Of a stretch of 64,000 nt of DNA, positions 2,989-43,368 are shown piece after piece. The position numbers and the translations under genes were made by a program. The notes under the pieces were generated by a model. It was not told the DNA's origin, made no database searches, and saw only the letters and a program-made list of their open reading frames with translations. Each line of letters opens with the position of its first letter. Within the stretch, counting starts at the first letter, position 1. Where the stretch lies: NCBI RefSeq assembly GCF_003325355.1, contig NZ_CP030850.1, positions 5,201,501-5,265,500 of the forward strand. The letters are read 5' to 3'. This DNA comes from Runella rosea (GTDB lineage Bacteria; Bacteroidota; Bacteroidia; Cytophagales; Spirosomataceae).

Positions 2989-4024
2989 GGCTTTTAAGAT
3001 TGATTTTTAAGGTAGCGGTAAACGCTGATTCGTTCTGTTGAATGGATAGGGTGTAGTCAGTATAGAGCAGTTGCAATTGTCGCCGCAGATTGGAAAGACC
3101 GATATTTTCTTTTACACGCGGCCGGTCCGAAAAGGTTTCCGTGGAATTTTTGACCACAAATGATAACTGTCGCTGATTGACCGATAGATGAATATCGATA
3201 AAAGGATGCTCTCGGGTCTCGGAAACACCGTGTTTAAAGGCATTTTCCACCAGCGGTATCAGAAGCAGTGGGGGCAAAGCCTGTTTCATATCTTCGACAT
3301 CATGGTTGAAATTGACCTGCAATGAATCATCATACCGCAGCTTTTCGAGGGCAATGTAATCATTCATTATTTTCAATTCCTGGTCAATGGCAATGTATGC
3401 TCCCCCGGCCTCATAGAGCATAAAACGCAGCAGTTGCGACAGCCGTAAAATTGATTCCGGTGCCAAGTCGGATTTATCCCGGGCCAAAGAATAAATATTG
3501 TTGAGGGTATTGAACAAAAAATGCGGATTGGTTTGGGATTTGAGGTAGTTCAGCTCGGCTTCCTGTTTTTCGATTCGCAATTGTTGGGCCGCCTGTTTTA
3601 ATTTCCGGTAATCATAGATATGCCTTACGATGCCAAAAAAGAAGACGGAAAATAGGCTGAAGGGAACATGTGCTGCCACTCCTTCCCGAGGGGAAGAATA
3701 GGTTTTTAAGGAAAAATAAACGTGTAATCCAATGCCGATATACCGCCAGAAATAGAAGCCAAAAGAGTATAGAAGAAGATGGCCCCCCAACAGGAACGGT
3801 GCGATAAAAATGCGCTTCCATGAACGCCGTAAATAGGGAAGAGTGTACTCAAAAAACAGAAAGTTTAAAACCACCAAATAACTGACCAGCCAAAGGTTGT
3901 TCACGATCCTTTTGAGAAACGTTTCGGGATTGCTCACTAAATCACCAAATAATAAGAGCAACAAATACCCAACGCCAATCTGAAGGTATAATTTGAATCG
4001 TTCGCGGTCTACGGGTCTGTTCAT
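2981..4024 (-). CDS. LytS/YehU-type sensor histidine kinase
   Basis: A 347-residue membrane kinase. The N-terminal half (about residues 10-135) has four hydrophobic segments, then a short coiled coil (about 140-162). The HisKA_7TM-less 'His_kinase' box follows: LKSQTNPHFLFNTLNNIYSL, with H168 as the phosphate acceptor. The ATP-binding N-box is LLLIPLVENAFKHGV and the G-box is ENIGLSNLRRQL. This is the usual partner of LytTR regulators, and the regulator gene follows with an 8-bp overlap. No extracellular sensor domain is visible beyond the membrane segments, so the signal is probably sensed in or at the membrane. Confidence 0.92.
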   Translation of the reverse strand: MNRPVDRERFKLYLQIGVGYLLLLLFGDLVSNPETFLKRIVNNLWLVSYLVVLNFLFFEYTLPYLRRSWKRIFIAPFLLGGHLLLYSFGFYFWRYIGIGLHVYFSLKTYSSPREGVAAHVPFSLFSVFFFGIVRHIYDYRKLKQAAQQLRIEKQEAELNYLKSQTNPHFLFNTLNNIYSLARDKSDLAPESILRLSQLLRFMLYEAGGAYIAIDQELKIMNDYIALEKLRYDDSLQVNFNHDVEDMKQALPPLLLIPLVENAFKHGVSETREHPFIDIHLSVNQRQLSFVVKNSTETFSDRPRVKENIGLSNLRRQLQLLYTDYTLSIQQNESAFTATLKINLKSHV

Positions 4025-29429: not shown

Positions 29430-29665
29430 TGCTGTACGAATTTTAATGAATAATGCTTGTATAGTAGAAAAGTTATATAAAAAGTTTCATAACATCATGT
29501 ATTTGTTGGTATAATACAACAAGTGATTGTAAGGATACTAAAACGAGCTTAGATTTTTGTTAAAATCCCCCAAAGAAGAGAATCAAAATAATTGACAATT
29601 TTTTGTGCCTTCAGAAGCAGTAGAGGCCTTTTCGGGTTGGGATAATGCAAAAAAATCAACTTTTG

Positions 29666-29697
29666 TTTGGAAAATAAATATTGACCGGTTTTATTTG
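29666..29697 (+). promoter_or_regulatory. Promoter of the ilv operon
   Basis: TTTG at 29666-29669, 20 bases of spacer, then TTTATTTG at 29690-29697 fits the Bacteroidota pattern TTTG-N19-21-TAnnTTTG with one mismatch. Transcription would begin near 29704, about 48 bases before the leader ATG. A small inverted repeat, TACGC-aatta-GCGTA (29707-29721), lies at the predicted start and could be an operator. Confidence 0.55.
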
Positions 29698-29751
29698 TAA
29701 CGCAAATACGCAATTAGCGTAATTTCGCTATCAGAAAAAATTTGCTCTAAA

Positions 29752-29808
29752 ATGTTTACTAATATAATTGTGGTCGTGGTCGTCATTCTTTGCACCCAAA
29801 CGGTGTGA
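29752..29808 (+). CDS. ilv leader peptide MFTNIIVVVVVILCTQTV
   Basis: An 18-codon ORF lies directly upstream of an attenuator and ilvD. It contains a run of nine branched-chain codons (Ile-Ile-Val-Val-Val-Val-Val-Ile-Leu) and ends with another Val: three Ile, six Val and one Leu in all. Such a run is the mark of transcription attenuation leaders, where low charged tRNA stalls the ribosome. Its stop codon (29806-29808) lies in the left arm of the antiterminator, as expected when translation to the end favours the terminator. The peptide itself has no other expected function. Confidence 0.88.
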   Translation: MFTNIIVVVVVILCTQTV

Positions 29809-29869
29809 GTGGATTCCGATTGCTACCGTCGAAGCCTCACTCACACCGAAAAATGAGTGAGGCTTTTTT
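29801..29869 (+). promoter_or_regulatory. ilv transcription attenuator (antiterminator and terminator)
   Basis: Two mutually exclusive stems are visible. The terminator is an 11-bp stem, AGCCTCACTCA (29833-29843) with TGAGTGAGGCT (29854-29864), followed by a T-run to 29869. The antiterminator is a perfect 11-bp pairing of CGGTGTGAGTG (29801-29811) with CACTCACACCG (29838-29848), which uses the same bases as the terminator's left arm. A ribosome stalled on the Val/Ile run would leave 29801-29811 free and prevent termination. A ribosome at the leader stop would cover that arm and allow termination before ilvD. Confidence 0.88.
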
Positions 29870-29888
29870 GTAAAACCAACCTCCTATT

Positions 29889-31574
29889 ATGTCAGAACAA
29901 CTTAACAAATTCAGCCGCACTCTTACGCAAGAAGTAACAAATCCCGCCGCCAAAGCCATGCTCTATGGCGTAGGATTGACCAAAGAAGACATGCAAAAAG
30001 CCCAAATTGGCATTGCCAGTACGGGTTATGAAGGAAACACCTGCAACATGCACCTCAACGGATTGTCGGTGCATGTAAAAAAAGGAATTCAGGAAAATGG
30101 CATGGTCGGCCTTATTTTTCACACCATTGGTGTATCCGATGGCATGACTAACGGCAACGACGGGATGAGCTACTCGCTGCCAAGCCGTGACTTGATTGCC
30201 GATTCTATCGAAAACGTAGTGGGTGCCCAATGGTACGACGGAGTGATTGCGGTGGTAGGTTGTGACAAAAATATGCCAGGAGCCATGATGGCCATTGCCC
30301 GGTTGAACCGCCCAGCCATGTTGGTCTACGGCGGAACGATCCGGACGGGAGAATATAAAGGACAGAAACTCGACATTATTTCGGCGTTTGAAGCCTTGGG
30401 CAAGAAGTTTGCCGGAACGATTTCGGAAGAAGACTACGAAGGAGTTATTCAAAATGCCATTCCTGGTGCAGGAGCTTGCGGCGGAATGTACACGGCCAAT
30501 ACCATGGCTAGCTCAATGGAAGCAATGGGCTTAACGCTGCCCAATTCATCGACCTATCCGGCCACGCACGAAGGCAAAAAAGCGGAGTGTATCGCCATTG
30601 GAGCGGCCATGAAACAATTGCTGGAGAAAAACATTTGCCCGCGCGACATCATGACGCGCAAAGCCTTTGAAAACGCCATGACGGTGGTGATGGCGCTGGG
30701 CGGTTCGACCAACGCCGTGTTGCATTATCTGGCCATTGCCCGTGCCGCAGAAGTAGATTTTACGCTAAAAGATATTCAGGATATTTCGGACCGTACGCCA
30801 TTGATTGCCGACCTTAAACCGTCTGGTAAGTATTATATGGAAGATGTATTGGCCATTGGCGGAGTTCCAGCCATTATGAAATATTTATATCAGCAGGGTC
30901 TTTTGCACGGCGATTGCTTGACCGTAACGGGTAAAACCATTGCTGAGAATTTGGCCGAAGCACCTGATTTGAATTTCGATACCCAAAAAATCATTTTCCC
31001 GCTTTCGACACCCCTCAAACCCACGGGACACTTACAAATCATGTACGGAAACTTGGCAACGGAAGGTGCCGTGGCTAAGATTACTGGCAAAGAAGGTGAG
31101 CGTTTTGAAGGAACGGCCAAGGTATGTGAGCGCGAAGAAGAAGTCATAGAATACATTTCAAAAGGTGAAATCAAAGCGGGGCATGTCATCGTGATTCGCA
31201 ATGAAGGCCCCAAAGGCGGTCCGGGTATGCCCGAAATGCTTAAACCTACCTCGGCGGTGATGGGAGCGGGTCTGGGTGACAAAATCGCGATGATTACCGA
31301 TGGTCGTTTTTCGGGTGGTACGCATGGTTTTGTGGTGGGCCACATCACGCCAGAAGCCTACATGGGCGGAACCATTGGCCTGGTAAAAGACGGCGATAAA
31401 ATTACGATTGATGCCGTAAACAACGTATTGCAACTGCACGTCTCGGACGAAGAACTGGCCGAGCGTCGTAAGGAGTGGAAACAACCCGAGCCGCCGTTTA
31501 AAAAAGGGACGTTAGGCAAATACATCCGCAATGTGAAGTCGGCAAGCGAAGGCTGTGTAACGGATGAAGCGTAA
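29889..31574 (+). CDS. ilvD: Dihydroxy-acid dehydratase
   Basis: IlvD removes water from dihydroxy-acids to give the keto acids of valine and isoleucine, using an iron-sulfur cluster. The 561-residue protein shows cluster cysteines in [22 protein letters not shown] and [12 protein letters not shown]. The Mg-binding [13 protein letters not shown] and the C-terminal [17 protein letters not shown] and [20 protein letters not shown] are present. It is the first structural gene after the attenuator, 20 bases past the terminator T-run, and is followed 37 bases later by ilvB. Confidence 0.97.
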
Positions 31575-31611: not shown

Positions 31612-33414
31612 ATGGACAACCAATTAACCATGATTGCACAACAGGAAATTGCGTCGGCAGAAGCTGTTTTGACGCAAGAAACAGTTCAGCCAATGACAAC
31701 AACAGACGTTATTGCCGAAGGTCCTCGGTTTTTGTCGGGAGCGCAGGCGCTCATGGAATCACTGATTGCCGAAGGGACGGAAGTGATTTTTGGCTACCCG
31801 GGCGGTGCCATCATGCCTACGTATGATGCCCTCTTTGATTATTCTGACCGCCTAGACCATATTTTGGTACGGCATGAGCAAGGTGCTGGACACGCGGCGC
31901 AGGGATACGCCCGTACCAGCGGAAAACCCGGCGTTTGTCTGGTGACTTCTGGCCCTGGCGGTACTAATTTAGTGACGCCCATCGCCGATGCAATTATCGA
32001 CTGTACGCCTTTGGTGTGCATCATTGGACAGGTAAAGTCAACTTTGCTAGGAACGGATGCTTTTCAGGAAACCGATATTATTGGGGTAACAACCCCCGTA
32101 TGTAAGTGGAACTATCAAATCACCCACCCAGACGAAGTGCCAGAAGTAATGGCTAAGGCGTTTTACATCGCCACTTCTGGAAAACCGGGTCCCGTAGTGA
32201 TTGACTTCACGCGGGATGCCCAAGTCGGGATGATGGATAAGCCCTATCAATACAAAAAAATAGAAGGTTTGACCAGCTATAAACCACGTATTGTGCCCAA
32301 AGATGAACACGTTCAGAAAGCGGCGGAATTAATCAATAATGCAAAAAAACCCTATATTTTATTTGGGCACGGCGTATTGATTTCGGGTGCGATGGAAGAG
32401 CTGAAGGCATTTGCCGAAAAAACCGATATTCCTTGCGCCAGTACTTTATTGGGATTGTCGGCGATGCCGATTGACCACCCCAATTATGTGGGTTGGTTAG
32501 GAATGCACGGCAATTATGGCCCCAATGTATTGACCGACCAAGCTGATGTCATTATTGCCATTGGAATGCGTTTTGACGACCGTGTTACGGGCGATGCCAC
32601 CAAATACATTCGTCAGGCTAGGGTGGTGCATATTGAGATAGATCCGTCAGAGATTGATAAAATCATCAAGGCAGAAGCGCCAGTGGTGGGAGATGCCAAG
32701 GAAGCTTTGCGGAAGCTACTTCCCTTGGTGAAGGCCAATAATCACTCTACATGGCGCAATGAATTCAAGAAATTTGACGTCATCGAAGAGCAGAAAGTAA
32801 CCCGCCGTGAGTTGAAGGAAGAAGGTGAAATCAAGATGGCGGAAGTGGTAAATATGCTTTCCCAAAAAACCAACGGAGAAGCCTGCATTGTTGCGGACGT
32901 AGGTCAGCACCAGATGATTGCGGCGCGATATTACCAATTTAAAAACCCACATTCATACATTGCTTCGGGCGGATTAGGAACCATGGGTTTTGCCATTCCA
33001 GCGGCGTTTGGGGCTAAAAAAGGTGCTCCAGACCGCGAAGTGGTAGCCTTTATCGGCGATGGTTGTTTTCAGATGACCATTCAAGAATTGGGAACCATTG
33101 CGCAGAGCGGATTAGCCGTAAAATTGATTATTCTCAACAATAATTATTTGGGAATGGTACGGCAGTGGCAACAGCTGTTTTTCGAAAAGCGCTATTCATT
33201 TGTGGAACTGAAAAACCCCGATTTTGTAACCATTGCCAAAGGCTTTGGTATTACGGGCCATACCTGCTCTGAGCGCGATAACCTGAGCGACTCACTAGAT
33301 GCCTTGCTCAAATCAGATAAACCGTATTTGTTGGAAGTAATCGTGGAGAAAGAAGAAAACGTATTTCCAATGGTCCCTGCTGGGGCTTCGGTTGTTGATA
33401 TTCGGTTGGACTAG
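31612..33414 (+). CDS. ilvB: Acetolactate synthase large (catalytic) subunit
   Basis: A TPP enzyme that joins pyruvate with pyruvate or 2-oxobutyrate, the first shared step of branched-chain synthesis. The 600-residue protein has an N-terminal extension of about 35 residues rich in Ala, Glu and Thr before GAQALMESLIAEGTEVIFGYPGG. The catalytic Glu is in LVRHEQGAGHAAQGYAR, the FAD-binding part is GMRFDDRVTGD, and the TPP/Mg motif is FIGDGCFQMTIQE with LNNNYLGMVRQWQQLFF. The extension could hold a later start (ATG codons at 31645 or 31690 in frame). It acts with the small subunit encoded next. Confidence 0.96.
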   Translation: MDNQLTMIAQQEIASAEAVLTQETVQPMTTTDVIAEGPRFLSGAQALMESLIAEGTEVIFGYPGGAIMPTYDALFDYSDRLDHILVRHEQGAGHAAQGYARTSGKPGVCLVTSGPGGTNLVTPIADAIIDCTPLVCIIGQVKSTLLGTDAFQETDIIGVTTPVCKWNYQITHPDEVPEVMAKAFYIATSGKPGPVVIDFTRDAQVGMMDKPYQYKKIEGLTSYKPRIVPKDEHVQKAAELINNAKKPYILFGHGVLISGAMEELKAFAEKTDIPCASTLLGLSAMPIDHPNYVGWLGMHGNYGPNVLTDQADVIIAIGMRFDDRVTGDATKYIRQARVVHIEIDPSEIDKIIKAEAPVVGDAKEALRKLLPLVKANNHSTWRNEFKKFDVIEEQKVTRRELKEEGEIKMAEVVNMLSQKTNGEACIVADVGQHQMIAARYYQFKNPHSYIASGGLGTMGFAIPAAFGAKKGAPDREVVAFIGDGCFQMTIQELGTIAQSGLAVKLIILNNNYLGMVRQWQQLFFEKRYSFVELKNPDFVTIAKGFGITGHTCSERDNLSDSLDALLKSDKPYLLEVIVEKEENVFPMVPAGASVVDIRLD

Positions 33415-33502
33415 GCCGACAAGACAGCAACGGTTTGGTACTTAAATAAATGCACAACTAAAAACTCCCCTTTGGAGCGAGCCGACGATTCGGTTGGGGC
33501 TT

Positions 33503-34039
33503 ATGACGACTTACACCATCTGTATATTTACCGAAAATACTTTCGGATTGTTAAATAAAATTACAATTCTTTTCACCCGCCGGCGGGTCAATATTGAAAG
33601 TTTGACGGTGTCGGAGACCGAACGAAAAGGAGTGTCGCGGTACACCATTACCATCAAGCATGACAAACGCGAAGAAGTTGAAAAACTGGTTCGTCAAATC
33701 CGCAAAGTGGTGGAAGTTTTGGCCGTGTTTGGTTACCTAGACGATGAGGTTGTGTACAACGAAATCGCGCTTTTCAAAATCGCGACTCCTATCGGTACCC
33801 GACCCATCGACATCGAAACCATCAACAAAGTGTACAAAGCTTGGGTGGTTTATTGGGGGCTCGACTACGTGGTCATTGAGAAGGCGGGCAATGAAACTGA
33901 AATCATGGATTTCTTCCGGTATATCAAGCCTTACGGAATCCTTGAGTTCGTAAAATCAGGCCGTGTGGCCGTGGGAAAAACCCCCCAGGGGTTGGTGGAG
34001 TACCTTCCGCAGGAGGTACATGGCGAGTATTATGCTTAA
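33503..34039 (+). CDS. ilvN: Acetolactate synthase small (regulatory) subunit
   Basis: The regulatory subunit binds valine and controls the large subunit. The N-terminal ACT domain is clear: TTYTICIFTENTFGLLNKITILFTRR with RVNIESLTVSETE, and the longer IlvH-like C-terminal domain follows. The ATG at 33503 (MTTYTICIF) is preferred over an upstream TTG at 33494. Length (178) fits the IlvH type. It is in the ilv transcript, 88 bases after ilvB. Feedback inhibition by valine is known for the family and inferred here. Confidence 0.93.
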   Translation: MTTYTICIFTENTFGLLNKITILFTRRRVNIESLTVSETERKGVSRYTITIKHDKREEVEKLVRQIRKVVEVLAVFGYLDDEVVYNEIALFKIATPIGTRPIDIETINKVYKAWVVYWGLDYVVIEKAGNETEIMDFFRYIKPYGILEFVKSGRVAVGKTPQGLVEYLPQEVHGEYYA

Positions 34040-34127: not shown

Positions 34128-35270
34128 ATGAGACAACCACAGCAATCACTTACAACACCTTTTGGGTGGCTGGAGAGTAAATTACAACCGTTCTTTGACA
34201 ATAAATTTTGGCAGATAAGGCTATTGTTTTTAGCCCTGATTATCTCAACTGGTACGCTGTTGACCTTTAATTTTATTTTGGTCGAGAAGGGCTTGCGAAG
34301 TTTGTATCTTGAAATGCGGCAACCGGGGTCTATGGGCGGGCTTTTTTGGGATGATATTATCAAGCAGGGCGCTGACCCGTTTACGCCCAAAGACTATGAA
34401 GCGGGGTCACACGAGGCAAATCAAACTTTTCGTCTGACCATACCGCTCATTGCGCAGGCGTTGCACCTCAATGTTGCTGGTTTATACGCCCTTCATGTGT
34501 TTATGGGGCTGGTGTTTTTGTGGTTTATGACGCGGGTAGTTTTTGAAATAGTGAAGGATAAAATCCTGACCTTCTATTTCATGACAGGGTTTACGGCAAT
34601 CTACGCAGGGGCCAATTTTTACATCAATTTCCTAGGCCATTGCGATGCTTTCCCCTTTTGTTTTATGGTGTTGGCATTTTATTTTCGAAATCCACTTTCG
34701 GTTTTGATTTTTACCCAACTGGCCTTTTGGTGTGATGAGCGCGCCATTATCAATTCTTCTTATTTAGGGTTATGGTACGTGTTGCCACTGATTAAGCAGG
34801 TAGTTGATAAACGACAATTCTCTCTCAAAGAGATTCCGCTGCCAGTGATTGCATTAGTTGTTAGTGCAGGGATTTATTTAGCGATACGTCAATGGCTTTC
34901 CACAACGTACGGCTTGAAAGTAGGGCATGATAATGACTTGTCGCAGCGGACTAGTTTGTGGAGTTTAAGTATTCTCGGCGACAAATTTACGCGTGGTTTA
35001 GAAGGCTTTTGGCTTATTGTTTTTGCGGGTATGGTGGTTTTGGCCATGCTGAAAGATTGGTGGACATTGGTACTGCTGGGCGGATGTATACTGATTACGG
35101 GGGTAATTGGAGTGATGGTTGCCGATGGTACTCGCTCCTTGTCTTTTGGTTTTTATATGTTCTTTTTCATGTTGACCATTTTACGGGAACATATTCCAAT
35201 CAATCAGTTGAAATATTTGCTGATTGTCAGTACACTCGTTTCTTTAATGTTACCGATGTCGTTTCCTTAA
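34128..35270 (+). CDS. Multi-pass membrane protein of unknown function
   Basis: I do not recognise a named family. The 380-residue protein has about eight to nine hydrophobic helices. Polar signatures in the loops are GGLFWDDIIKQGADPF, FLGHCDAFPF and AFWCDERAIINSSYLG. The acidic loop residues resemble GT-C type polyprenyl-sugar transferases or related EpsG-like proteins, but no defining motif is present, so I call it only a membrane protein. It sits between ilvN and a methyltransferase gene with a 6-base gap, in the middle of an otherwise pure amino acid operon. Its link to the pathway is doubtful. Confidence 0.7.
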   Translation: MRQPQQSLTTPFGWLESKLQPFFDNKFWQIRLLFLALIISTGTLLTFNFILVEKGLRSLYLEMRQPGSMGGLFWDDIIKQGADPFTPKDYEAGSHEANQTFRLTIPLIAQALHLNVAGLYALHVFMGLVFLWFMTRVVFEIVKDKILTFYFMTGFTAIYAGANFYINFLGHCDAFPFCFMVLAFYFRNPLSVLIFTQLAFWCDERAIINSSYLGLWYVLPLIKQVVDKRQFSLKEIPLPVIALVVSAGIYLAIRQWLSTTYGLKVGHDNDLSQRTSLWSLSILGDKFTRGLEGFWLIVFAGMVVLAMLKDWWTLVLLGGCILITGVIGVMVADGTRSLSFGFYMFFFMLTILREHIPINQLKYLLIVSTLVSLMLPMSFP

Positions 35271-35276
35271 AATCGC

Positions 35277-36029
35277 ATGAATCAGTCGTATTATAAACAA
35301 TATTATCAGATAGAGCGTGAGCATTGGTGGTTTATAGTGCGGAATCAGATTATTATCAATCATTTGAAGCAGACCTTACCAAACCAACGTCCGCTTAAAG
35401 TCCTGAATGTAGGCGTGGCTACTGGGCATTTGTCGGAGTTGCTTGAAGTATTTGGAAACGTAAAATCAGTCGAATACGATCCAGAATGTTATGCTTTTAC
35501 CAAAGCAAATGTATTGATTGATTTGATTCAAGGCTCAATTCTCGAATTACCTTTTGCCGATGATACCTACGATTTGGTCTGTGCATTCGACGTAATTGAA
35601 CACGTTGAAGAACATCAATTGGCGGTCGATGAAATGAAACGAGTGTGTAAGCCCCAAGGCTTGGTGTGTGTGACGGTTCCTTCATTTATGTTTTTATGGA
35701 ATCGCCACGATGAAGTTAACCACCATGTACGTCGCTACACGATGCCGGTACTCGAAGGGTTATTTAAGAAAAGCGGAAGCATTGTGTTCAGCAGTTATTT
35801 TAATTTTTGGCTGTTTTTTCCAATTGCTTTTTTTCGATTACTGTCAAAATTGCTGCCCTTGCATCGGCAAAAGATAGAAGATGCAGGTTCAGATTTTACC
35901 GTAATGAACGGCCCGTTTTTTCAAAATATATTTGGCCGTATTTTTAAAACTGAAGACAGGTTGATTCAAAAAAAAATAAAACTGTTTGTGGGCGTGTCGG
36001 CCCTGCTTACGTGGCAAAAGACAAAATAA
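35277..36029 (+). CDS. Class I SAM-dependent methyltransferase
   Basis: A 250-residue Rossmann-fold methyltransferase of the Methyltransf_11 type. The glycine-rich SAM loop is VLNVGVATGHLSELL, the acidic residue ending strand 2 is in VKSVEYDPECY, and motif IV is YDLVCAFDVIEHVEEHQLAVDEM, followed by RVCKPQGLVCVTVPSF. A hydrophobic segment in the last third (FNFWLFFPIAFFRLLSKLL) suggests membrane association and a lipid- or polyprenol-linked substrate. It is paired with the membrane protein upstream, 6 bases apart. The substrate is unknown. Context suggests envelope glycan chemistry rather than branched-chain synthesis (inference). Confidence 0.85.
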   Translation: MNQSYYKQYYQIEREHWWFIVRNQIIINHLKQTLPNQRPLKVLNVGVATGHLSELLEVFGNVKSVEYDPECYAFTKANVLIDLIQGSILELPFADDTYDLVCAFDVIEHVEEHQLAVDEMKRVCKPQGLVCVTVPSFMFLWNRHDEVNHHVRRYTMPVLEGLFKKSGSIVFSSYFNFWLFFPIAFFRLLSKLLPLHRQKIEDAGSDFTVMNGPFFQNIFGRIFKTEDRLIQKKIKLFVGVSALLTWQKTK

Positions 36030-36066: not shown

Positions 36067-37110
36067 ATGGCACAAATCAATTTCGGCGGGAGCGTAGAAG
36101 AAGTAGTAACCCGCGAAGAATTTCCTCTTGAAAAAGCACGTGAAGTATTGGCAAATGAAACAATCGCCGTTATTGGTTACGGTGTTCAGGGCCCTGGTCA
36201 GAGCTTAAATATGCGCGATAACGGTTTCAACGTAATTGTTGGACAACGTAAAGGAAAAACCTACGATAAAGCAGTAGCAGACGGATGGGTTCCTGGTGAA
36301 ACTCTTTTCGAAATCGAAGAAGCCCTCGAAAAAGGAACCATCATTTGTTTCTTATTGTCGGATGCTGCCCAAATTGAATTGTGGCCAACCGTAAAGAAAG
36401 CGCTTGTTCCTGGCAAGTCTCTGTATTTCTCACACGGTTTTGGTGTAACTTATAAAGAACAAACAGGTATCGTTCCACCAGCTGATGTGGATGTGTTTTT
36501 GGTAGCTCCTAAAGGCTCAGGAACGTCACTTCGTCGTTTGTTTGTAGAAGGAAAAGGTCTTAACTCTTCTTTTGCCGTATATCAGGATGCTTCAGGTAAC
36601 GCCCGTACAAAATGTATCGCGATGGGTATCGGTGTAGGTTCAGGCTATTTGTTTGAAACTGATTTCTACCGCGAAGTTACGTCTGACCTTACTGGTGAGC
36701 GTGGAACGTTGATGGGTGCTATCCAAGGAATTTTTGCCGCTCAATACGAAGTATTGCGCGAAAACGGTCACTCGCCATCAGAAGCATTCAACGAAACCGT
36801 AGAAGAATTAACGCAATCATTGATGCCGCTCGTGGCTGAAAACGGTATGGATTGGATGTATGCCAACTGCTCAACCACTGCACAACGCGGTGCCCTTGAC
36901 TGGTGGAAACCTTTCAAAGAAGCCACTAAGCCTGTATTCCAGAAACTGTACGATTCAGTAAAATCAGGTGAGCAGGCCAATATCTCCATCACACGCAACT
37001 CGCAGCCTGACTACCGTGAGAAACTCGAAGTAGAATTGGCTGAGCTTCGTGATTCAGAAATGTGGATTGCAGGAGCAGCTGTACGTAGCTTGCGTCCGGA
37101 ACGTAACTGA
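36067..37110 (+). CDS. ilvC: Ketol-acid reductoisomerase (short form)
   Basis: IlvC isomerises and reduces acetolactate or acetohydroxybutyrate with NAD(P)H and Mg. The 347-residue class I enzyme has the Rossmann motif VIGYGVQGPGQSLNMRDNG, with VGQRKG after strand 2 as cofactor-specificity loop. It also shows LLSDAAQ, SHGFGVTYKEQ, VFLVAPKGSGTSLRRLF, DLTGERGTLMG, and the metal-binding Asp/Glu region up to VEELTQSLMPLVAENGMDWMYANCS. The gene lies 37 bases after the methyltransferase gene. Downstream are two hairpins before ilvA. Confidence 0.96.
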   Translation: MAQINFGGSVEEVVTREEFPLEKAREVLANETIAVIGYGVQGPGQSLNMRDNGFNVIVGQRKGKTYDKAVADGWVPGETLFEIEEALEKGTIICFLLSDAAQIELWPTVKKALVPGKSLYFSHGFGVTYKEQTGIVPPADVDVFLVAPKGSGTSLRRLFVEGKGLNSSFAVYQDASGNARTKCIAMGIGVGSGYLFETDFYREVTSDLTGERGTLMGAIQGIFAAQYEVLRENGHSPSEAFNETVEELTQSLMPLVAENGMDWMYANCSTTAQRGALDWWKPFKEATKPVFQKLYDSVKSGEQANISITRNSQPDYREKLEVELAELRDSEMWIAGAAVRSLRPERN

Positions 37111-37280: not shown

Positions 37281-38564
37281 ATGAGTCTCGCCTCCGAAAA
37301 ACACAAGCCTAAAGCTGCGGATTTGCCCACATTTGACAATATTTTGCAGGCCGCTGAGCGAATTCGAAAAGTGGTAAAGCACACCGATTTGGAGCTAAAC
37401 CTCAATTTTTCGGAACGTTATGAAGCCAATATTTACTTCAAACGGGAAGATTTGCAGGTGGTGCGCTCTTACAAGATTCGGGGTGCGTACAACAAAATGG
37501 CGAGCTTGTCGGCCGAGGCGCTTGAAAAAGGGGTGGTGTGTGCTTCCGCGGGAAACCACGCCCAGGGTGTAGCCTATGCCTGTAACAAAATGCAGGTTCG
37601 CGGCCGAATCTTCATGCCCAGTACCACGCCCGCCCAAAAGGTAAAACAGGTCAAACTTTTCGGAAAAGACCAAATTGAAGTGGTACTGCACGGCGATACG
37701 TACGACGATGCCTACCATGCTGCCAAGCACTTTTGTGAAAGCAATGAGGCAACCTTCATTCATCCCTTCGACGACGTGCAGGTGATGGAAGGGCAGGGGA
37801 CCGTCGGGTTGGAAATCTTCCGGGATGCTGATTTTAAAATTGATTATTTACTGTTTGCCATCGGTGGCGGTGGCCTGGCCTCGGGCGTAACGACGGTGTT
37901 TAAACAATTGAGCCCCGCCACAAAACTCATTGGGGTAGAGCCGCTTGGCTCTCCGACCATGTACACGGCCATCAAGGAAAATCACGTAGTAACGCTCGAA
38001 AACATTGATAAATTTGTAGATGGAGCGGCCGTAAAACGTGCTGGTGAGCATACGTTTGAAGTGTGTCGCAAGAATCTGGATTCTATTTTGTTGGTTCCCG
38101 AAGGAAAAGTATGCTCTACTATCTTGCAATTGTATAACGAAGAAGCTATCGTGGTTGAGCCAGCGGGCGCGCTTACGGTAGCAGCACTCGACCAAATCAA
38201 GGATGAAATCAAGGGCAAAGATGTAGTATTGCTGATTGGCGGTGGCAACAACGACATTACCCGTACCGAAGAAATAAAAGAGCGCAGTTTGCTTTACGAA
38301 GGACTCAAGCATTACTTTATCATTCGGTTTCCGCAACGTTCGGGTGCATTCAAGGAATTTTTGAACCATGTTCTTGGACCTAACGACGACATTGCGCACT
38401 TTGAATACTCTAAAAAAACTGCTCGTGAGCGCGGCCCTGCCTTGGTAGGTATCGAATTGCGCCACAAAGAAGATTTTGAACCGCTTCTGGCCCGAATGCA
38501 GGAGCACAACATGCAATTTGAATACATCAATAATAAGCCCGATTTATTTGAGTTTTTGATATGA
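37281..38564 (+). CDS. ilvA: Threonine ammonia-lyase (threonine dehydratase, biosynthetic)
   Basis: IlvA deaminates threonine to 2-oxobutyrate, the entry to isoleucine. The 427-residue protein has the PLP lysine in REDLQVVRSYKIRGAYNKM, ASAGNHAQGVAYAC, the phosphate-binding glycine loop AIGGGGLASGV and the GGGNND motif. One C-terminal ACT-like regulatory domain starts at about residue 345 (HYFIIRFPQRSGAFKEFLNHVLG). The single domain fits the shorter TIGR02079 type rather than the two-domain E. coli form. The stop overlaps the start of the next small gene (ATGA). Confidence 0.95.
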   Translation: MSLASEKHKPKAADLPTFDNILQAAERIRKVVKHTDLELNLNFSERYEANIYFKREDLQVVRSYKIRGAYNKMASLSAEALEKGVVCASAGNHAQGVAYACNKMQVRGRIFMPSTTPAQKVKQVKLFGKDQIEVVLHGDTYDDAYHAAKHFCESNEATFIHPFDDVQVMEGQGTVGLEIFRDADFKIDYLLFAIGGGGLASGVTTVFKQLSPATKLIGVEPLGSPTMYTAIKENHVVTLENIDKFVDGAAVKRAGEHTFEVCRKNLDSILLVPEGKVCSTILQLYNEEAIVVEPAGALTVAALDQIKDEIKGKDVVLLIGGGNNDITRTEEIKERSLLYEGLKHYFIIRFPQRSGAFKEFLNHVLGPNDDIAHFEYSKKTARERGPALVGIELRHKEDFEPLLARMQEHNMQFEYINNKPDLFEFLI

Positions 38565-41850: not shown

Positions 41851-43368
41851 ATGAGATACATCGAAATAATGGATACGACACTCCGCGACGGTGAACAGAC
41901 CAGCGGAGTGTCTTTTTCGGCTTCTGAAAAGCTGGCGCTCGCGCAACTTCTTTTAACAGATGTCAAAGTAGACCGCATCGAAATTGCTTCGGCGCGGGTG
42001 TCAGAAGGCGAATTTAGGGCGGTAAAAAAAATCACCGATTGGGCCAAAGAAAACGGATTTTTGGACAAGGTAGAAGTACTGACTTTTGTAGACGGCGAAG
42101 CGTCCATCAATTGGATGCTTGAATCGGGTGCAACAGTCATGAATCTGTTGACCAAAGGCTCAATGAATCACTTGGTGCATCAACTCAAAAAAACGCCCGA
42201 AGCGCATTTTGAAGATATTCAAAAAGTGATTGCCTTGGCACAATCGAAAGGTATTTCTGCCAATGTGTATCTGGAAGATTGGAGCAATGGAATGCGTAAC
42301 TCCCCTGAGTATGTATTCCAATTTCTTGATTTTCTGGCCACTCAGCCCATTCGTCGAGTGCTTTTACCCGATACGTTGGGCGTGCTTACGCCAGCTGAAT
42401 CTTATTCGTTTGTGAAATCAATTGTGGAGCGTTATCCCAATCAACACTTTGATTTCCATGCTCATAACGACTATGACCTAAGCATTGCTAATGTCATGGA
42501 AGCGCTACGGGCGGGAGCCCATGGGCTGCATTTGACCGTCAATGGCATGGGCGAACGGGCTGGAAATGCGCCGTTGGCGAGTGCAATTGCGGTCTTGAAG
42601 GATTTCATGCCAGAAGTAACCACGGGAGTAGTGGAGGAATCGTTGTATTCCATCAGCAAAATCGTTGAAACCTTCTCTGGGCTTCGTATTCCAGCCAACA
42701 AACCGATTGTGGGAGATAATGTTTTTACCCAAACTGCTGGTATTCATGCCGATGGCGACAAGAAAAACAACCTGTATTTCAATGAGCTGATGCCAGAGCG
42801 TTTTGGACGCAAGCGTTCGTATGCGTTGGGCAAAACGTCGGGGAAAGCCAATATCGAAAATAACCTTCGGGAACTGGGTATCAAACTCGCTGATGAAGAC
42901 CTCAAAAAAGTAACGCAGCGAATTATTGAACTCGGTGATAGAAAGGAAGTTGTGACGCAGGACGACCTTCCGTACATCATTTCCGACGTGTTGGATACCA
43001 ACGCTATTGAGTACAAAATTGAAGTTCTCAATTATGTGTTGACCCACTCTAAAGACCTTAAACCATCGGCAACGCTCAAGGTGAAAATCGAAGATGAGGT
43101 GTTTGAAGAAAATGCGCAAGGTGATGGCCAGTACGATGCGTTTATGAATGCGTTGAAGAAAATATATGAGGTCAAAGGAAAAACGCTCCCACTGTTGACC
43201 GATTATGCCGTTCGCATTCCTACGGGAGGGCGCACCGACGCGCTTTGTGAAACCATCATCACCTGGAATTGGAATAATAAAGAGTTTAAAACCAGAGGTT
43301 TGGACTCTGACCAAACGGTATCGGCTATCAAAGCCACTCAAAAGATGCTGAACTTGATTTCTATATAG
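41851..43368 (+). CDS. 2-isopropylmalate synthase or citramalate synthase (LeuA/CimA family)
   Basis: A 505-residue DRE-TIM acyl-CoA lyase. The barrel has MDTTLRDGEQTSGVSF (catalytic Arg and metal Asp), the metal HxH in FDFHAHNDYDLSIANV and the glycine loop VNGMGERAGNAPLAS. A C-terminal LeuA-type allosteric domain follows (about residues 380-505). It is the only such gene between leuD and leuB, so context says leuA. However, the N-terminal string is closer to the short CimA-like group than to the standard LeuA DTTLRDGEQSPGASM. The enzyme may use 2-oxoisovalerate, pyruvate or both. I leave the symbol blank for that reason. Confidence 0.85.
   Translation: MRYIEIMDTTLRDGEQTSGVSFSASEKLALAQLLLTDVKVDRIEIASARVSEGEFRAVKKITDWAKENGFLDKVEVLTFVDGEASINWMLESGATVMNLLTKGSMNHLVHQLKKTPEAHFEDIQKVIALAQSKGISANVYLEDWSNGMRNSPEYVFQFLDFLATQPIRRVLLPDTLGVLTPAESYSFVKSIVERYPNQHFDFHAHNDYDLSIANVMEALRAGAHGLHLTVNGMGERAGNAPLASAIAVLKDFMPEVTTGVVEESLYSISKIVETFSGLRIPANKPIVGDNVFTQTAGIHADGDKKNNLYFNELMPERFGRKRSYALGKTSGKANIENNLRELGIKLADEDLKKVTQRIIELGDRKEVVTQDDLPYIISDVLDTNAIEYKIEVLNYVLTHSKDLKPSATLKVKIEDEVFEENAQGDGQYDAFMNALKKIYEVKGKTLPLLTDYAVRIPTGGRTDALCETIITWNWNNKEFKTRGLDSDQTVSAIKATQKMLNLISI

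Follow-up and report, generated by a model that had tools for sequence, protein, structure and literature searches.

A conserved candidate attenuator with a branched-chain leader peptide upstream of ilvD in Runella rosea

What decides whether RNA polymerase enters the branched-chain amino acid genes of Runella rosea? Directly upstream of ilvD lies a short open reading frame (ORF) packed with isoleucine, valine, and leucine codons, followed by two hairpins that compete for the same bases, an arrangement that raises the possibility of ribosome-mediated attenuation, a classic and well-known mechanism. In the window (the whole 64-kb stretch of DNA analyzed here, G000:C1:5201501-5265500 in the organism's own genome), this leader is followed by ilvD, ilvB, ilvN, two other genes (34128-36029), ilvC, and ilvA, with about 20 nt separating the attenuator from ilvD (Table 1). 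The sequence evidence makes it very probable that this single unit is a ribosome-mediated transcription attenuator, one that senses charged branched-chain tRNAs, mainly those for valine and isoleucine, and sets readthrough into ilvD, ilvB, ilvN, ilvC, and ilvA. By eye, the two genes between ilvN and ilvC encode a multi-pass membrane protein and a methyltransferase-like protein.

Table 1. Features of the ilvD leader region and the genes behind it (window coordinates)
Feature	Coordinates	Strand	Basis
Probable promoter: TTTG (29666-29669), -7 element TTTATTTG (29690-29697)	29666..29697	+	Sequence, by eye
Promoter-proximal palindromes: TACGCAATTAGCGTA (29707-29721) overlapping GCGTAATTTCGC (29717-29728)	29707..29728		Sequence
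Leader peptide ORF MFTNIIVVVVVILCTQTV, stop TGA 29806-29808	29752..29808	+	ATG at 29752, 18 sense codons, read directly
Regulatory codons 5-13, nine consecutive Ile/Val/Leu (I I V V V V V I L)	29764..29790	+	Sequence
Segment 1:2 hairpin, 29789-29796 x 29802-29809, -7.4 kcal/mol	29789..29809	+	Computed
Antiterminator 2:3, 29801-29812 x 29837-29848; 5' arm holds leader stop codon	29801..29848	+	Duplex calculation
Intrinsic terminator 3:4, 29831-29843 x 29854-29866, T-run 29864-29869	29831..29869	+	Terminator calculation
ilvD, dihydroxy-acid dehydratase; first gene after leader	29889..31574	+	NCBIfam TIGR00110, 713 bits versus cut-off 618
ilvB, acetolactate synthase large subunit	31612..33414	+	TIGR00118 over cut-off
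ilvN, acetolactate synthase small subunit	33494..34039	+	TIGR00119 over cut-off
ilvC, ketol-acid reductoisomerase	36067..37110	+	TIGR00465 over cut-off
ilvA, threonine ammonia-lyase	37281..38564	+	NF006390 and TIGR02079 over cut-off

Leader, hairpins, and promoter upstream of ilvD

The first-pass annotation had proposed an 18-codon leader with nine consecutive Ile/Val/Leu codons (five of them Val) upstream of an ilvD-first operon, and two 11-bp stems with shared bases, the leader stop codon falling inside the antiterminator arm. All of these features are present as described: the leader is read directly in the sequence, the stop lies within arm 2, ilvD is the first gene by its protein family match, and calculation lengthens the two stems to 12 pairs for the antiterminator and 13 for the terminator. 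In the window sequence these structures share arm 3 and are mutually exclusive. The region as a whole (29740-29880) folds at -43.6 kcal/mol (z -4.50), a value equaled by none of 200 shuffles, and the antiterminator duplex reaches -22.1 kcal/mol, compared with a mean of -9.2 and no equally good case in 1,000 shuffles of the 5' arm region. When both strands of the window were scanned for short ORFs rich in one amino-acid class and followed by a terminator, six rows were returned, one of which was another frame over the same ilvD-leader terminator. Only in the ilvD leader ORF were nine of nine residues of its own class.

A Bacteroidota-type promoter had also been proposed. Its elements can be placed plausibly by eye, with one mismatch in TTTATTTG to the -7 consensus TAnnTTTG as quoted in PMC9723704, and promoter-like arrangements also precede the leaders of relatives (e.g., TATATTTG in genera g2 and g36). 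Between promoter and leader a palindrome, GCGWAWWTTCGC, occurs both at ilvD (29707-29728) and at leuA (G000:C1:5427241-5427254). Similar palindromes lie within about 85 nt of 36 of 56 ilvD leaders in the family and at 20 of 43 leuA leaders, the latter counted with a slightly different pattern, and GCGWAWWTTCGCWA is found three times in the genome: at ilvD, at leuA, and inside a coding frame. From its sequence and position, this palindrome is a candidate operator for a branched-chain regulator, or a candidate 5' hairpin.

Conservation in the family and modeled ribosome positions

A search for IlvD matched 199 of 200 family genomes, some only distantly (Runella G124 being such a case). From these, 110 ilvD upstream regions were taken, 30 returned by the search and 80 chosen among the matches listed, a sample in which genus g13 is largely absent and g5, g32, and others are covered in part. 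A leader followed by a terminator was present in 57 of the 110 regions, compared with 3 of 550 dinucleotide shuffles, and 56 leaders from 13 genera were kept after one false call was removed. Leaders were called from a threshold of six branched-chain residues per nine, which missed the ilvD-proximal leader at one Runella locus (L013); this one was added at five. At L033 the downstream terminator was used, the first-called one overlapping the ORF. The rejected leader (L077) encodes a peptide like those of ORFs upstream in leaderless loci and was taken as antisense of a neighboring gene. All 12 Runella ilvD copies examined carry a leader. The scan found none in 54 of the 110 regions, including all 18 g5 copies and all 7 g17 copies examined, and a covariance model later found leaders that the scan had missed (e.g., G097 and G011). 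Peptides differ across genera (MFTNIIVVVVVILCTQTV, MNQISVNIIVVLILLSI, MSPNKVIIVPIILLLNK, and MKSTIIVPVLLIVTR) and the residue class is kept.

Both pairings are conserved with compensatory changes. In a plain MAFFT alignment of the 56 leaders, which are related rather than independent sequences so that shared ancestry remains in the controls, 94.4% of terminator cells were paired, compared with at most 61.1% when the partner was slid by 1 to 3 columns, and 9 of 12 pairs showed changes on both sides. Corresponding values for the antiterminator were 80.4%, at most 50.0%, and 9 of 13 pairs. For either structure, the observed covariation score was reached in none of 500 column shuffles. The antiterminator's count of further pair types was equaled in 155 of the 500 column shuffles, and the alignment shows frequent breaks in its outer pairs. 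Since the two hairpins share arm 3, changes in arms 2, 3, and 4 are coupled. Energetics agree with the alignment: the antiterminator duplex had a median of -19.1 kcal/mol across the 56 leaders, versus -8.8 when shuffled, and in 53 of 56 at most 5% of shuffles were as good (among the three that failed is Runella L008, at 0.16). In all 56 leaders arm 2 lies at the stop codon or immediately beyond it, partly by construction, as the arm search began 14 nt before the stop.

These conserved features bear on whether the terminator could be constitutive, merely lowering ilv expression by partial termination with no sensing at all. Folding of the complete leader RNA does end stably in the terminator, which speaks for this reading, but it leaves unexplained both the conserved leader coding and a conserved competing antiterminator that covaries with the terminator, and we regard this explanation as highly improbable.

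To model the attenuator, all nucleotides up to 9 nt past the A-site codon were masked and the transcript was folded up to arm 4. In the window, the probability of the antiterminator, P(2:3), was 0.98 to 0.99 with the A site at codons 1 to 13, 0.81 at codon 14, 0.51 at codon 15, 0.09 at codon 16, and 0 at codons 17 to 19 (stop included). A stall at any regulatory codon thus frees the antiterminator, and finishing the leader removes it. Across the 56 leaders, median P(2:3) was 0.81 untranslated, 0.93 with a stalled ribosome, and 0.00 with the ribosome at the stop. A strict definition of a switch (P(2:3) above 0.5 when stalled and below 0.2 at the stop) selected 37 of 56 leaders, and those outside it were 8 of 11 leaders in genus g28, 5 of 6 in g36, 4 of 8 in g32, and one each in g33 and g16.

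Two aspects of the model constrain the mechanism. Once arm 4 has been made, the terminator dominates at equilibrium although the ribosome is stalled, with a probability of 0.96 in the window and 0.7 or more in 52 of the 56 leaders; switching must therefore rely on kinetics. In untranslated window RNA before arm 4 is made, pairing 2:3 (-21.2) outcompetes the 1:2 hairpin, with P(2:3) of 0.94, and termination without leader translation is therefore not predicted unless 1:2 forms first. Untranslated P(2:3) fell below 0.2 in only 16 of 56 leaders. In this model, basal termination without leader translation is uncertain.

We infer the following course, from start site through leader translation, pausing, and termination to a response to branched-chain starvation. 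Transcription probably starts shortly before 29710, and a ribosome would initiate on the 18-codon leader. With Val, Ile, and Leu tRNAs charged, the ribosome would proceed to the stop codon and cover arm 2 (29801-29812), leaving arm 3 free for the terminator (29831-29866) to form, and RNA polymerase would stop before ilvD. Under shortage of a branched-chain tRNA, the ribosome would wait on codons 5 to 13, and arm 2, left uncovered, would pair with arm 3 ahead of the synthesis of arm 4, so that transcription would continue into ilvD. The attenuation reading in the first-pass annotation was to be checked by conservation in close relatives and by folding with and without a leader ribosome. The leader and both pairings do persist in 13 genera, which leaves it unrefuted on that count, and the modeled block switches the window pairing at the predicted codons; together with the pathway-tracking residues described below, these results support it.

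Leader codons and the genes that follow

Branched-chain residues account for 549 of 923 residues in the 56 ilvD leaders, versus a fraction of 0.24 in 11 window genes. The 12 Runella leaders also favor codons that those 11 genes use rarely: GTC makes up 0.45 of 66 Val codons (versus 0.11), ATA 0.34 of 35 Ile codons (versus 0.08), and CTC 0.54 of 13 Leu codons (versus 0.11). Part of the branched-chain bias may be a pairing constraint. A Shine-Dalgarno-like site was found at none of the 56 family ilvD leaders.

A covariance model (R1) trained on the 56 ilvD leaders alone found matches in 103 of 200 family genomes (E values up to 0.01). Sixty further matches, chosen among the matches listed, comprised 43 before leuA, 6 before ilvD, 2 before an EamA-type transporter gene, and 9 before none of these. 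The leuA leaders are leucine rich, for example MKPIAQNLILLLLTTS and LKQTAFAISLLLLLSFTV (read from TTG). Of the 43, 42 have ten or more residues; in these, Leu accounted for 194 and Ile plus Val for 102 of 688 residues; in the 56 ilvD leaders, the corresponding counts were 162 and 387 of 923. This difference is large (Fisher P = 6.3e-24, with residues that are not independent), peptides having been read from the first position of the model, which is not always a start codon. Leader amino acids thus track the regulated pathway.

One of the leuA leaders lies in the R. rosea genome itself (G000:C1:5427120-5427234), before the gene for a 384-amino-acid 2-isopropylmalate synthase. It has only three leucines, and its antiterminator was equaled by 34 of 1,000 shuffles. 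A third R1 match in this genome (2611839-2611963), one of the nine that precede none of the ilvD, leuA, and EamA genes, lacks a leader, has no gene of at least 80 codons within 1 kb, and was treated as chance. A different frame in the window, of 512 amino acids, contains a LeuA dimerization domain (42952-43359); distinct from the 384-amino-acid leuA of the second attenuator, it is perhaps a citramalate synthase. In two genera, leucine-rich leaders stand directly before EamA/DMT-type transporter genes (L236 and L238), which suggests, from sequence, that these transporters are linked to leucine or branched-chain supply.

Leaders for other amino acids occur in the same genome. A Trp-Trp-Trp leader with a terminator precedes a trpE-type gene (L197, reverse strand 2921-2986); this combination was seen in 10 of 13 Runella genomes, and the antiterminator of the R. 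rosea trp leader was equaled by 11 of 1,000 shuffles. Upstream of hisG, a leader ORF holds five His codons (L196, reverse strand 3058-3147); its DNA was matched in 12 of 13 Runella genomes and the His run was read in 9, with no convincing terminator in these genomes. At the homoserine dehydrogenase gene of R. rosea, the upstream DNA yielded no Thr/Ile-rich leader with a terminator.

This correspondence between residue and pathway weighs on two further explanations. In the first, an RNA-binding protein or a small ligand would choose between terminator and antiterminator, and the short ORF would be incidental. The RNA does fold well without a ribosome, and the promoter-proximal palindrome hints at more regulators, yet an incidental ORF does not account for a branched-chain content that shifts to leucine before leuA, nor for the trp and his leaders of the same genome. 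Rfam includes leader families for Leu, His, Trp, Thr, and Phe. At gathering score, no Rfam family, the T-box included, was matched anywhere in the window, and no leader family of Rfam 15 was matched in the window or in nine loci with related leaders; at E values up to 5, only three unrelated low-scoring families appeared in 29550-29950. A protein or ligand switch is accordingly given very little credence.

In the second, the leader would encode a functional small hydrophobic peptide, acting in the membrane or in trans, with the terminator ending the peptide's own transcript. Runs of Ile, Val, and Leu do resemble a short membrane segment, and a trans-acting leader peptide has been described (PMC7298713). 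Against this, peptides from different genera share little except residue class, the leaders of leuA, trpE, and hisG carry the matching amino acids, and arm 2 keeps its place at the stop codon, with the qualification about the arm search given above. We consider a functional peptide highly improbable, the least likely of the alternatives, and an attenuator read by the leading ribosome remains the preferred explanation.

Serial units and leaders elsewhere in the Bacteroidota

Leaders of this kind extend beyond the family. Among the best 80 named ilvD loci, 9 of them from the family, 44 had at least one ATG-started leader with a terminator within 2.9 kb upstream; the opposite strand gave 3 of 80 and shuffling 3 of 400. 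With a 500-bp limit, 23 of the 71 loci outside the family had both elements and 10 also passed the antiterminator test, while none of 355 shuffles passed all three tests. Seven of the 23 are Flavobacterium loci, none of which passed the antiterminator shuffle test (best P values, 0.06 to 0.30). R1 matched 31 of 395 phylum genomes at E values up to 0.001, R. rosea and one congener included, and the genes following the non-spurious matches resemble ilvD, ilvE, ilvN, and leuA (ilvE and ilvN from reading translations). Seven loci of family f24 (L306 to L308 and L312 to L315) look spurious in this search. As the Runella-trained model reaches only a minor fraction of the phylum, it is the leader-plus-terminator scan that carries the broader claim.

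Several of these loci carry two complete units in series. Among the 80 named loci, 7 had such pairs with gaps of 14 to 26 nt (Myroides, two Chryseobacterium, Lutibacter, a Cyclobacteriaceae metagenome-assembled genome [MAG], an Ignavibacteriae MAG, and Tenacibaculum), compared with none of 80 on the opposite strand and none of 400 shuffles. Serial units were likewise present at 12 of 30 loci from the phylum search, with gaps of 5 to 28 nt, and at none of 30 on the opposite strand; the two sets overlap, the leader pair of L300 being the same as that of L179. First and last units were alike in composition (Ile shares, 0.43 and 0.41), so both seemingly sense the same signal.

Stacked Ile-rich attenuators were noted at L289 (G454), L293 to L302, and L309, and L289 may comprise three, if a TTG start is accepted for the first. 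Four Runella loci (L010, L011, L012, and L013) have a second, weaker leader-terminator unit farther upstream, some 240 nt from the ilvD leader, for example MIIRTKNSVILVSIITPSTV. A conserved promoter lies between the two units in these four species, which may therefore not be serial. In R. rosea, the covariance model found no full-length second unit upstream.

Enterobacterial ilv attenuators such as that of ilvGMEDA combine an Ile/Val/Leu-rich leader peptide with mutually exclusive antiterminator and terminator hairpins. Compared by description, the R. rosea leader likewise places a branched-chain leader and exclusive hairpins before biosynthetic genes; unlike the enterobacterial leaders, it belongs to another phylum, its promoter looks Bacteroidota-type, and its first gene is ilvD. 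A 2010 comparative paper by Lopatovskaya and others may already contain Bacteroidetes predictions. Outside the Proteobacteria, alternative hairpins also precede the ilvBNC operon of the actinobacterium Corynebacterium glutamicum, which differs, by its description, in its first gene (PMC11857589). In 2010, leader-peptide systems had, to the knowledge of the authors of PMC2965389, been shown only in Proteobacteria and Actinobacteria, to which that report added one in Firmicutes.

The first-pass annotation had regarded the mechanism as known from other phyla, which holds; leader-peptide attenuation had, however, already been hinted at within the Bacteroidota. A 2021 transcriptome map of Flavobacterium psychrophilum, of the same phylum as Runella, reported "strong clues" of this same kind of attenuation before amino-acid operons, in a section that names no leader and no ilv operon (PMC9723704), and short ORFs reminiscent of leader peptides are mentioned for Bacteroides thetaiotaomicron (PMC7366714). 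The Bacteroid-trp motif RF01692 is a candidate RNA of Bacteroidetes (PMC2864571); it gave no gathering-score match to the window or to the Runella trp leader locus. For stacked units, the nearest parallel is Salmonella mgtCBR (PMC3641672), in which two leader ORFs and attenuators share one leader RNA. The mgtCBR units sense ATP and proline, whereas those of the stacked relatives are both Ile rich and the R. rosea attenuator is single. In the open-access literature, outside which most subscription papers lie, we found no branched-chain attenuator family described in the Bacteroidota and no account of serial attenuators that share one signal. The stacking seen in relatives is the more novel part; the mechanism in the window is itself of a known kind.

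We lean, with some reserve, toward the broader view that the Bacteroidota contain an extensive undescribed set of leader-peptide attenuators, partly sharing an RNA chassis with gene-dependent codons, in which several lineages stack two Ile-rich units at gaps of 5 to 28 nt. If so, same-signal gates in series would multiply termination when amino acids are plentiful and sharpen the response, and the leading ribosome and RNA polymerase would be kept in step despite leaders that have no Shine-Dalgarno-like site. The R. rosea leader provides a concrete, conserved candidate switch for branched-chain synthesis in this phylum, and gene-matched leaders allow amino-acid signals to be read from sequence, as with the leucine-rich leaders before EamA-type transporters. 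These leaders open a test of whether transcription and translation stay in step in Bacteroidota, and of what is gained by stacking same-signal attenuators in series.
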